Below are positions 8,396-40,284 of a DNA stretch of 64,000 bases, one piece after another (the first letter of the stretch is position 1; each line of letters starts with the position of its first letter). The notes beneath the pieces were generated by a model, which was given only the letters and a program-made list of their open reading frames with translations, was not told where the DNA came from and ran no database searches. This DNA comes from Polyangium sp. 15x6. Lineage in GTDB: Bacteria > Myxococcota_A > Polyangia > Polyangiales > Polyangiaceae. The translations under genes and the position numbers were made by a program. The stretch spans positions 124,001 to 188,000 of the forward strand of contig NZ_JASBQE010000005.1 of the NCBI RefSeq assembly GCF_029960785.1, in the 5' to 3' direction.

Positions 8396-9370
8396 ATGTC
8401 GAACTGGTCGACCTTCACCCTGCCCTTCGAGGGCCTGGAACTGCCGCGATTCCTCCTGACGCTGGAGCAGTCGCTCACCGCGTTCCCCGGCGCCCGCGTC
8501 ACGTTCGTCGAGCTCGACGCAGCCGACGACCCCGACGAACCCCTCTGCGGCATCGAGATCTCGCTGCCGCGCGCGCTCGTCGAGCATCACCGCGCGCCCG
8601 AAGATCCCGAATTGCCGGAAGGCGAGGACGCCCCGAGCGCCGAGATCACGCTCTCCGCCGAAGGCGAAGAGACGACGCTCGCCGTGGATCTCGAGCGAAA
8701 CGCCTACGTGATGCCCGTGCTCGTCAAGATCGTCGAGGATGTCCTCCGTCGGCTCGACGTGATCGACGAGGACGAAAGCGAAGACGAGGAAGACGAAGAA
8801 GACGAGGAAGACGAGGACGAGGAATTCGAGGACGACGAAGAACTGGACGACGAGGACGAAGACGAGGAAGACGAGGACGAGGACGAGGAGGACGAGGAGG
8901 ACGAGGAGGACGTCGACGAGGACGAGGAGGACGAAGAGGAAATCGAGGACGAGGTCGGAGAGGCCTTCGAATCGCTCCGTGTCGTCGCCGCGCGTACGTT
9001 CGGGGCCATCGAAGGCGACGAAACGTCGTTTTCGCTCACGGTCTCCTGGGAGGAGCCGCCGCGCAAGAAGGGCGTCCGCGTGCGCGCCTTCGAACCCGCG
9101 TTCGCCGCGGGCGAGGGCGAAGGCGCGTCGTGGGTGGCGCTCGAATGCGAGGTTTGTCCGCTGTCGGCACTCCCGCCCGCCGAGGCGGTCGGGATCAACA
9201 CGGCGGCCGATTTCCAGATGTCGCTCGACGGCGAGACGTACCTCCTTTCGACGAGTTATCCCGTGCGCGCGCTCGACGCGTCGCTCTTCCTGGAGATCAC
9301 GCTCGCGCTCGCCGAGCAGGCGGACATCCTCGGTCTGGCCATCGAAGAAGGCAAGCTCGCCCGTTCCTGA
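8396..9370 (+). CDS. Unknown protein with 64-residue acidic tract (first of a paralogous pair)
   Basis: This 324-residue protein has three parts: an N-terminal domain (residues 1-120), an almost pure Asp/Glu tract (124-187, bases 8765-8956) made of GAC/GAG/GAA codons, and a C-terminal domain (190-324). Both flanking domains align by eye with the next gene: 'FPGARVTFVELD' with 'FPDARIARAIVD', and 'YPVRALDASLFLEITLALAEQAD' region with 'YPLRVLDRARFVAIAMAIAEQAD' region. The neighbour has only a ten-residue acidic segment at the same place, so the tract has expanded here by repeat growth or shrunk there. There is no signal peptide or catalytic motif. Acidic tracts often mimic nucleic acid, bind basic proteins or chelate metal. 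The function is unknown. Confidence 0.75.
   Translation: MSNWSTFTLPFEGLELPRFLLTLEQSLTAFPGARVTFVELDAADDPDEPLCGIEISLPRALVEHHRAPEDPELPEGEDAPSAEITLSAEGEETTLAVDLERNAYVMPVLVKIVEDVLRRLDVIDEDESEDEEDEEDEEDEDEEFEDDEELDDEDEDEEDEDEDEEDEEDEEDVDEDEEDEEEIEDEVGEAFESLRVVAARTFGAIEGDETSFSLTVSWEEPPRKKGVRVRAFEPAFAAGEGEGASWVALECEVCPLSALPPAEAVGINTAADFQMSLDGETYLLSTSYPVRALDASLFLEITLALAEQADILGLAIEEGKLARS
8765..8956 (+). repeat. GA-rich triplet repeat encoding an Asp/Glu tract
   Basis: About 190 bases consist almost entirely of the codons GAC, GAG and GAA in varied order, interrupted by a few TTC, CTG, GTC and ATC codons. The tract encodes residues 124-187 of the first paralog. The low complexity suggests growth by slippage or unequal exchange. 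The complementary strand reads as poly-Ser or poly-Leu/Val in other frames, which creates false open frames. Confidence 0.85.
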
Positions 9371-9379
9371 GAGAAAACC

Positions 9380-10207
9380 ATGCCCCGTCCGTTTTGCTTC
9401 ACGCTGCCCTACGCTCGGTTCTCCCCGGCCCACGCGCTCGCGAGCCTGGAGGAGGCCATGGCCAATTTTCCGGACGCACGCATCGCGCGGGCCATCGTCG
9501 ACATGGAGCAGGAGAGCCCGCAAGGGCTCGACATCGATATCGAGGTCGGTCCCTCGCTCCTGCCCGAATCCGCGGGCGAGGAGATACGCACCGGGACCTT
9601 GTCGGTGCGCTTCGACGGTCAGGCGGTGTCACTCGTCATCGATCCACGCGACGCGAGCGCGGTGCTGCCCGCAATCTTCGCGATCGCCGAGACGATGCTC
9701 GCAAGCGTGCGTGATCTCGCCGCCGTCGCGGCAGGTCAGGACGCCGAGGAAGAGGAAGACGTCGAGGTGGACGCCGATCCATGGAGCAAGCCGGCGTCGT
9801 TCGACGATCTCGCGCAGCGGGCGAGGCACCTGTTCTCGCTGGACGGGCGCGGCGAGACAGCATTTGGCGTGACAATCGCCTGGCAAAAGCCAGTAGGCCG
9901 GACGCAGGGGTTGCTCGCGCATGCACACACGCCGCGCTTCGAGGAGGAAAACGGAGGCGAGGCGACGTGGGTGACGCTGGAGAGCCCCGTTTGTCCAAAG
10001 AATCGTCTGACGCCGGAGGAAGCGCTACGCCGGAGCCGCTCGCTCGACGTGGGCGCGCTCTGCGAGCGGGCCGAGCATTACACGATCGTGGCGAGGTATC
10101 CGCTGCGGGTGCTGGATCGGGCGCGGTTCGTGGCAATCGCGATGGCCATCGCCGAGCAGGCGGATCGGCTGGAAGCGATGCTGACGGGCGGCAAGGACGA
10201 GCTGTAG
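9380..10207 (+). CDS. Unknown protein, paralog of the preceding gene
   Basis: This 275-residue protein is homologous over its whole length to the gene just upstream, except that the acidic middle is only about ten residues (AEEEEDVEVD, residues 122-131). Shared landmarks are the start 'FTLPYARFSPAHALASLEEAM', the central FGVTIAWQKP (compare FSLTVSWEEP) and the end 'YTIVARYPLRVLD...IAEQADRLE'. It starts nine bases after the upstream stop, so the two are surely co-transcribed and arose by tandem duplication. No signal peptide, membrane segment or enzyme motif is seen. A 9-bp hairpin follows the stop. The function is unknown; a hetero-oligomer with the upstream protein is possible. Confidence 0.78.
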   Translation: MPRPFCFTLPYARFSPAHALASLEEAMANFPDARIARAIVDMEQESPQGLDIDIEVGPSLLPESAGEEIRTGTLSVRFDGQAVSLVIDPRDASAVLPAIFAIAETMLASVRDLAAVAAGQDAEEEEDVEVDADPWSKPASFDDLAQRARHLFSLDGRGETAFGVTIAWQKPVGRTQGLLAHAHTPRFEEENGGEATWVTLESPVCPKNRLTPEEALRRSRSLDVGALCERAEHYTIVARYPLRVLDRARFVAIAMAIAEQADRLEAMLTGGKDEL

Positions 10208-10215
10208 ACGCCCGC

Positions 10216-10236
10216 GCTCTCCACCGCGTGGAGAGC
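10216..10236 (+). terminator. Hairpin after the paralog pair, probable terminator
   Basis: A perfect 9-bp stem GCTCTCCAC / loop CGC / GTGGAGAGC begins nine bases after the stop at 10207. Only a weak T-rich stretch (TGGTCTCATCTT) follows, so termination may need Rho or rely on the larger palindrome that starts 20 bases further on. Confidence 0.5.
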
Positions 10237-10257
10237 TGGTCTCATCTTGAAACCGCT

Positions 10258-10558
10258 GCGCTGGGGCGTTGCCCCAGGCCCCACCGGGGCTATCCGCCCC
10301 TGGACCCGGACCAGCGCAAGCGCTGGACCCGGGGTCGATGAACTGCGCGATGCGCAGTTCATCGAACGGCCAGGGCAAGACCGGCGACGACCCTGCCAAC
10401 CAAGACCGCCGTGACCGGCAACGCCGTCCCTGGTCTTGCCACCGGCGTGTGGGAAGAACTGCGCATCGCGCAGTTCTTCCCCCTGAGGTCCAGGGCTTGC
10501 CCTGGTCCGGGTCGAGGGGCGGACAGCCCCCGCGGGGTCCGGGGCAGCGCCCCGGCGC
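10258..10558. repeat. Large imperfect inverted-repeat element with twin hairpins
   Basis: The 107-bp left arm (10258-10364) is the imperfect reverse complement of the right arm (10451-10558). For example GGGGCTATCCGCCCCTGGAC on the left matches GGGGCTGTCCGCCCCTCGAC read from the right on the other strand. Each arm ends inward in a perfect 14-bp hairpin with a three-base loop and a shared GAACTGCGC core: 10335-10365 and 10451-10481. The 85-bp centre also contains short inverted words (GGCAAGACC at about 10374 and GGTCTTGCC at 10432-10440). It fills the 357-bp gap between convergent genes and ends seven bases from the thiolase stop. It carries no open frame of its own. It looks like a non-coding mobile or dispersed palindromic element, which is inference. 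Confidence 0.75.
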
Positions 10559-10564
10559 GGCGGG

Positions 10565-11848
<1,284 letters not shown>

Positions 11849-39940: not shown

Positions 39941-40284
39941 TCCCCATGGCGGGCGCCGCGCGAGGCGCCTTCGTGCGGCCCTGCCCGAAGGCGGCGCGTC
40001 ACGAAGGCGCCTTCGGCGTCTCCGTCCATGTGGCGGGACGCACTCGCGAGGGTTCTGCGCAGTCCTGCCACATGGCGGGGCGTGCCGAAGGCGCCTTCGG
40101 CGTCTCCGTCCATGTGGCGGGACGCGCTCGCGAGGGTTTTGCGCAGTCCTGCCACATGGCGGGGCGTGCCGAAAGGCGCCTTCGGCGTCTCCGTCCATGA
40201 GGCGGGCGCGCTCGGAGGAGCGTTCGGGCGTGTCGGGCAGGATCCGGCGAGGGTGGGGCGACCGGTGACGACGCGGTCGGCCAC
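39941..40284. other. Gene-free region between convergent genes
   Basis: These 344 bases separate the membrane-anchored unknown and the SEC-C gene. They are dominated by the tandem repeat at 40003-40208 and a degenerate forerunner of its palindrome at about 39955-40000. Open frames exist on both strands only because the 84-bp unit is a multiple of three. No ribosome-binding site or domain supports a gene. Confidence 0.6.
40003..40208. repeat. 84-bp tandem repeat with internal palindromes
   Basis: Two full copies (40003-40086 and 40087-40170) differ at a few bases. A partial third copy from 40171 carries one inserted A and ends at about 40208. Each unit begins with a perfect 12-bp palindrome, GAAGGCGCCTTC. 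Each full unit then has inverted arms CCATGTGGCGGGAC and GTCCTGCCACATGG, 22 bp apart (40026-40039 with 40062-40075, and 40110-40123 with 40146-40159), with one G-T pair. Every full unit can thus form a 14-bp-stem hairpin on either strand. It lies between convergent stops. Confidence 0.85.

Follow-up and report, generated by a model that had tools for sequence, protein, structure and literature searches.

At positions 10253–10563 of the window, by which we mean the whole 64-kb stretch of Polyangium sp. 15x6 DNA analysed here, two genes converge on a gap occupied by a large palindrome. What is this structure, how did it come to lie behind two stop codons, and what keeps its many copies alike?

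The palindrome and its surroundings

The structure is a quasi-palindrome with arms of 111 nt (10253–10363 and 10453–10563) that are 84% complementary and 89 nt apart. The first-pass annotation was right to call the arms imperfect reverse complements, but the 107–108 bp it gave was slightly short. Among the two minus-strand self-matches listed for the window (E ≤ 1e-5), the palindrome is clearly the stronger (E = 1e-52). The other match (E = 1e-7) is a weaker palindrome at 40057–40127, 81% over 74 aligned columns, amid near-repeated units containing GCCGAAGGCGCCTTCGGC. Folded as RNA, the palindrome is predicted to reach −262.6 kcal/mol (z = −16.9), and none of 100 shuffled sequences was equally stable.

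The arms carry a series of stem-loops. The twin hairpins named in the annotation are indeed perfect 14-bp stems with 3-nt loops. They pair 10335–10348 with 10352–10365 (SL4) and 10451–10464 with 10468–10481 (SL4′), and have in common the core GAACTGCGC-3-GCGCAGTTC. Allowing up to 3 mismatches, the window has two occurrences of this core where 0.12 would be expected. In 153 aligned copies, 99.0% of cells were paired in the left hairpin and 99.5% in the right. Stem-loops termed SL3 are found at 10311–10326 (CCAGCGC-AA-GCGCTGG) and 10490–10505 (CCAGGGC-TT-GCCCTGG); in other copies, the counterpart of the left SL3 is the usual landing place of the insertion sequence (IS) described below. SL1 stem-loops are located at 10261–10277 (CTGGGGC-GTT-GCCCCAG) and 10539–10555 (CCGGGGC-AGC-GCCCCGG). 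A central hairpin at 10374–10440 has 24-nt arms that are 79% complementary.

The gap is convergent and without a gene, as first annotated. On the left, a plus-strand gene (9380–10207) encodes 275 amino acids with no Pfam match. On the right, a minus-strand thiolase gene (10565–11848) has its stop 1 bp past the palindromic core. The list of open reading frames has none of 60 or more codons wholly within 10253–10563. Upstream of the left neighbour, at 8396–9370, is a predicted protein with a long aspartate/glutamate run, for which the sole Pfam match, BUD22, falls below the cut-off. Rfam gave 8 matches up to E = 10 across 9900–10900, all far under their gathering scores, and the reading as a known RNA family was rejected on that count.

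A repeat family and its partner insertion sequence

We compared 39 genomes: six of Polyangium (our own and five of the same genus, labelled G000 to G005) and 33 from outside the genus. Our own genome (13.38 Mb, 275 contigs) contains 480 exact hairpin cores; a reversed control gave none. At least 40 copies there are full-length (40 of 573 candidates were scored), and 39 further scored places match the window core almost end to end, with 87–95% identity. At the examined loci, overlaps included, 89 pairs of adjacent exact cores are separated by under 400 bp, and in 59 of these the spacing is 116–119 bp. Strong matches occurred in all six Polyangium genomes, and a single genome of the 33 outside gave one weak 39-bp match. 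The best 80 of at least 82 stretches in a scan of named genomes comprised 72 from Polyangium (P. fumosum, sp. y55x31 and sp. 6x1) and 8 single hairpins in other organisms. These counts uphold the earlier proposal of a non-autonomous, family-forming element; with hundreds of cores, it is no single-copy sequence. A description of this palindromic family in Polyangium was not found in open-licence papers.

Distribution along the chromosome was mapped in G005, where the 13.24-Mb contig C1 has 55 exact hairpins of one loop sequence between 1.31 and 10.0 Mb. The zone running from 10.0 Mb through 0 to 1.4 Mb (35% of the contig, with dnaA at 11.65 Mb) holds 1 of the 55 hairpins versus 14 of 20 PF01609 transposases; it was picked after the data had been seen and concerns one exact loop variant, so p-values here are descriptive only. 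GC skew, sampled at 20 places, was too weak to place the terminus, and the map speaks neither for nor against a terminus-organising role. The near lack of elements in the third of this chromosome that bears dnaA, a region rich in other transposons, calls for explanation.

The best-preserved copies, 350–365 bp long, end in 18-bp terminal inverted repeats (CTGAGCATKGGTCTCATC) and are flanked by 9-bp target duplications. The repeat came to light as a motif directly outside the core, which adjoins an element in 24 of 25 distinct occurrences (≤3 mismatches). Both repeats (≤5 mismatches of 18 each) are present in 11 of 200 distinct copies. The 9-bp duplication is perfect in four of these 11 and matches at 8/9 in one. 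The other six match at ≤5/9 at the register tested; in one of them, L273, a shift of 1 nt gives a perfect 9-mer. In a mismatched-pair control, 0 of 110 pairs were perfect and 2 of 110 matched at 8 or more positions. The next best duplication length, 10 bp, gave one perfect match. Target duplications of the kind that the first-pass annotation associated with such an element therefore do flank some intact copies.

The window copy reaches approximately 10229 if a degenerate left repeat is included (10229–10246, plus strand, 13/18 against CTGAGCATKGGTCTCATC of intact copies). The stop of the left neighbour is 21 bp ahead of this repeat, and the right repeat is absent. Judged by its ends, the window copy is a worn relic, and as a member of the terminal-repeat-poor class it should be immobile. 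Such copies are common. In our own genome, repeats of at least 15/18 are found at 3 of 58 ends, and the core of copies in G000, G002, G004 and G005 is sharply bounded, mostly with no terminal repeats. No consistent target duplication was found at the trimmed boundary of the repeat-poor copies in G000, G002, or G004 and G005 together. Hence, a single recent burst of terminal-repeat transposition fails as an explanation.

A partner was found by seeking the terminal repeats beside PF01609 transposases of G005. It is an IS of 1,503–1,504 bp that encodes a 475-aa transposase and shares both its type of ends and its duplication length with the element. G005 has four intact copies (1,504 bp; two perfect duplications, one at 8/9, one absent) and two partial ones. 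G002 has one full-length copy (84% identical), with one end identical to the element's repeat and a perfect 9-bp duplication, plus three partial copies. Partial matches alone were obtained in G000 (2), G001 (2) and G003 (16, of which 11 or more lie no further than 3 bases from a contig end); G004 gave none. A full-length transposase was not found in G000, G001, G003 or G004. The transposase scores above cut-off for PF14706 (Tn5 DNA-binding), PF01609 (DDE), PF02281 (Tn5 dimerisation) and NF033590 (IS4 family), and matches the Tn5 transposase in the PDB (E = 4.5e-36). These domains place the IS in the IS4/Tn5 family, alongside Tn5/IS50. Tn5 ends also begin with CTGA, after which they depart from those of the partner IS, and Tn5 makes a 9-bp duplication. 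Unlike Tn5/IS50, the partner IS has a narrow choice of hairpin targets and an associated MITE.

Since ends and duplication length are shared with a Tn5-like IS, the element is best read as a MITE of that IS and not as a REP/IS200-type repeat. By eye, the likeness between MITE and IS seems confined to the terminal repeats. On sequence grounds, every MITE feature that can be tested is present: terminal inverted repeats (11 of 200 copies; the window copy has only its 13/18 left remnant), a 9-bp target duplication, short length with no coding capacity (350–365 bp in the five duplication-bearing copies) and an autonomous partner with the same ends (full length in G002 and G005 alone among six genomes). 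We infer that the Tn5-like transposase of the partner IS moves the MITE. The accessible part of PMC10969869 describes bacterial MITEs as likewise short, geneless and mostly intergenic, with terminal repeats, a target duplication and a related transposase in the genus. Unlike the MITEs described there, the Polyangium element has a body that is almost wholly quasi-palindrome, with a stem-loop array on each arm; most copies have no terminal repeats, yet the core is homogeneous; and the partner IS inserts in the MITE's own hairpin.

Landing sites and gene ends

We counted those IS flanks for which 40 bp or more of DNA beyond the IS was available. Twenty-four of 28 end within a palindromic element, 21 of those 24 in an SL3 stem; these are not 28 insertions, because five copies contribute 10 flanks, one from each side, and two single flanks at contig ends may come from one copy. 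Single-flank copies with ends of more than 2 mismatches were left out; they include old relatives in G000 and G001 with no hairpin nearby. As read from these junctions, the IS lands in its own MITE. For MITE insertions alone, the preference for hairpin centres is weak and only suggestive (3, 6, 2, 5, 3 and 5 matches of 10, versus a control mean of 2.8). The pooled figure, over 10 sites, takes in IS sites inside elements, which by construction are in hairpins.

A precedent is ISRm22, an IS4-family IS of Sinorhizobium. The accessible part of PMC1525189 places every copy of ISRm22 in REP elements, and describes Tn5 target sites as palindromic and GC-bounded. The partner IS resembles ISRm22 in its family and in targeting a palindromic repeat. 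Unlike the unrelated REP described for ISRm22 in that source, the Polyangium target carries the IS's own terminal repeats, and is an apparent non-autonomous derivative. A search of open-licence papers turned up no report of an IS4-family IS that sits inside its own MITE.

Gaps between convergent genes hold 106 of the 200 distinct copies; 75 are in tandem gaps, 18 in divergent gaps and 1 is at an edge. For the 168 copies of at least 280 bp, the counts are 92 convergent, 60 tandem and 16 divergent. Element-free gene pairs at examined loci of 7 kb or more were 73 convergent, 349 tandem and 116 divergent (p = 4e-27), with genes called by our own codon-usage script and most loci chosen for their elements, not at random. 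Among these longer copies, all 92 convergent and 54 of 60 tandem examples have a stop codon no more than 60 bp away. Element-free convergent gaps have a median of 12 bp; such short gaps mean that closeness to stop codons is there partly forced. In tandem gaps, the median distance is 15 bp to the upstream stop versus 96 bp to the next start. On these gene calls, most copies are just behind stop codons and convergent pairs are favoured. MITEs near gene ends, and IS4-family ISs in palindromic repeats, have already been described (PMC10969869, PMC1525189). In the accessible part of PMC10969869, QMITE2 of Coxiella is chiefly in 3′ untranslated regions and SPRITE of pneumococcus is named terminator-like.

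The structure is well conserved. In 153 aligned copies, local stems have 90.9% standard pairs versus 34–44% when slid, and arm-to-arm pairing is 87.3% versus 37–46%. Two-sided changes seen in at least 3 copies affect 25 of 112 pairs versus 9–15 when slid, and two-sided changes fill 357 cells versus 85–162; all four statistics take the structure from the consensus and ignore kinship among copies. Template-directed correction of palindromes could mimic selection on pairing.

A two-way role at 3′ ends is plausible from position and structure. The strongest alternative to our preferred reading goes further: the cores would be selected as two-way 3′-end structures, either terminators or barriers to 3′ exonucleases, with transposition explaining only their origin. 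We take this to be a serious contender, somewhat short of even odds. It draws on the position behind stop codons and the conserved local pairing, and on stem arrays of the same kind on both strands. In addition, some empty orthologous gaps, examined by eye, hold another GC-rich hairpin. Against it, the U-tract of an intrinsic (Rho-independent) terminator was not seen: with 300 of the 14-bp hairpins read on both strands, none of the 600 readings has TTTT within 14 nt downstream. The sole terminator-like site in 10150–10650 is a 5-pair stem with 3 G–C pairs (0.1 expected). A constraint on pairing alone would not preserve the exact core sequence. Finally, avoidance of genes and promoters predicts a similar distribution, convergent gaps being short regardless.

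Shared sites and unshared sequences

We compared orthologous positions for five loci of our own genome. Whole or part elements are present in 15 of 24 scorable combinations of locus and genome. At the window locus, G002 and G004 have whole elements, G005 and G003 have parts (contig ends truncate that of G003), and the gap in G001 is 52 bp, with a hairpin and no element. The first element of locus L142 is whole in G003 and G004 and partial in G002 and G005; G001 is empty. The second is occupied in G004, halved in G001, spans two contig ends in G002 and is empty in G003 and G005. At L141:9442, G003 to G005 hold elements, G001 is empty and G002 could not be scored. At L141:4111, G005 is occupied, G001 is empty, and G002 to G004 have other DNA with no element. 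Empty sites, to be looked for in relatives of a mobile element according to the first-pass annotation, thus occur at four loci in G001, the window locus among them, and at one in G003 and G005.

Other differences were seen at these loci. The window-locus orthologs in G002 (L154) and G003 (L152) have a third hairpin, GCATCGACTGCGC-TTC-GCGCAGTCGATGC, with a different stem, inside the element; modules can seemingly be added. In the G005 ortholog (L155), the part element adjoins repeated units (CTCGGAGACTCGGCCGCACTGCCCAGAGACACG...) that run for several hundred bases. At the empty sites in G003 and G005 (L189 and L191), a different hairpin, with CTCTC..GCGGGAGAGGGG or similar, is found at the position that the palindromic element has in other species. 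A segment of roughly 1 kb that includes a polysaccharide deacetylase gene (L141:6533–7558) is present in our own genome and G004; its place is a gap of 3–4 bases in G001, G003 and G005, and of 26 bases in G002.

Sequence relationships follow the genome. The nearest relative is in the same genome for 126 of 153 copies (17% expected), the copies having been picked mostly by similarity to the window copy or by an exact hairpin core. Mean identity within genomes is 84–89%, and the closest copy of the same genome averages 90–94%. We ranked each positional ortholog among the sampled copies of the other genome, using 15 pairs with comparable elements. For the 11 pairs outside G003–G005, ranks were uniform (mean normalised rank 0.50; KS p = 0.99; one direction), and the best match was the positional ortholog once. 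The two genomes closest by flanks, G003 and G005, gave ranks of 16, 1, 3 and 1 of 21. Of 19 positional pairs, 10 agree in orientation and 9 are flipped; leaving out G003–G005, 6 of 15 agree and 9 are flipped. All four G003–G005 pairs keep their orientation. By this test, and with G003–G005 set aside, two species' copies at one site resemble each other no more than copies drawn at random do.

Shared sites, together with nearest relatives in the same genome, suggest homogenisation within genomes. For the 18 copies of our own genome with a paralog of at least 93% identity, recognisable terminal repeats were found at 2 of 36 ends; the figure in G003 is 15 of 46. A recent burst of terminal-repeat insertion misfits our own genome; gene conversion or re-insertion fits.

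Re-insertion is the basis of a second alternative, which we consider unlikely though worth weighing. Here, the terminal-repeat-poor copies at shared sites would be independent insertions, made via a second route into preferred 3′-end gaps, and not inherited copies that gene conversion has homogenised. The uniform ranks outside G003–G005, the mixed orientations and the sharp core boundaries are all as this would predict. It has difficulty with the degree of site sharing, 15 of 24 being far above chance for a few hundred copies among thousands of gene ends (a chance level that we estimated and did not compute), with the trimmed boundary that has no consistent duplication, and with the kept orientation in all four G003–G005 pairs.

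The single-strand, REP/IS200-like mover suggested by the first-pass annotation can be dismissed, being highly improbable. Like the REPINs of PMC3116915 and PMC3733652, in their accessible parts, the element has two inverted hairpins, is extragenic and has hundreds of copies; unlike them, it has no GTAG tag (0 of 600 readings of 300 hairpins, both strands), is about 10 times the length of a REP, and has terminal repeats with 9-bp duplications, which match a Tn5-like DDE IS. The Y1 transposase domain of RAYT and IS200/IS605 elements, PF01797, was found in three of the six Polyangium genomes but not in the family-bearing G002, G004 or G005, and the match in our own genome is a fragment (positions 63–121 of 121). 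CGTC or its complement is within 12 nt of a hairpin in 22 of 600 readings, which does not amount to a REP/REPIN tag. We rejected a RAYT/IS200 mover on these grounds.

We therefore favour, with a probability of about 0.85 for the explanation as a whole, a MITE of a Tn5-like IS that has spread behind gene ends and whose old copies persist as repeat-less cores. In this MITE explanation, the Tn5-like transposase of the partner IS would mobilise the element. A preference of that transposase for GC-rich hairpins would steer the MITE towards terminators where genes end. Old copies would lose their terminal repeats, and the multi-hairpin core would be kept as a tolerated or useful two-way 3′-end structure. 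Recombination between copies would homogenise the cores within each genome.

So read, an anonymous intergenic palindrome becomes a defined MITE with a recognisable partner, and an IS appears to insert into its own non-autonomous offspring. That the sites are shared between species and the sequences are not gives a natural test of how dispersed repeats are kept similar in a bacterial genome. One extension of the MITE explanation, which is speculative and in our view doubtful, is that MITE and IS reinforce each other as a pair. The hairpin preferred by the parent IS would be part of the MITE, and spreading MITEs would provide harmless landing pads behind genes. Cut-and-paste exit of the IS from these hairpins would leave breaks to be mended from other copies, and because the element is quasi-palindromic, repair would be possible in either orientation. 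If this is true, hundreds of dispersed 3′-end elements would be homogenised in each species while their sites are inherited, and the family would be a case of transposon-driven concerted evolution of a bacterial repeat.
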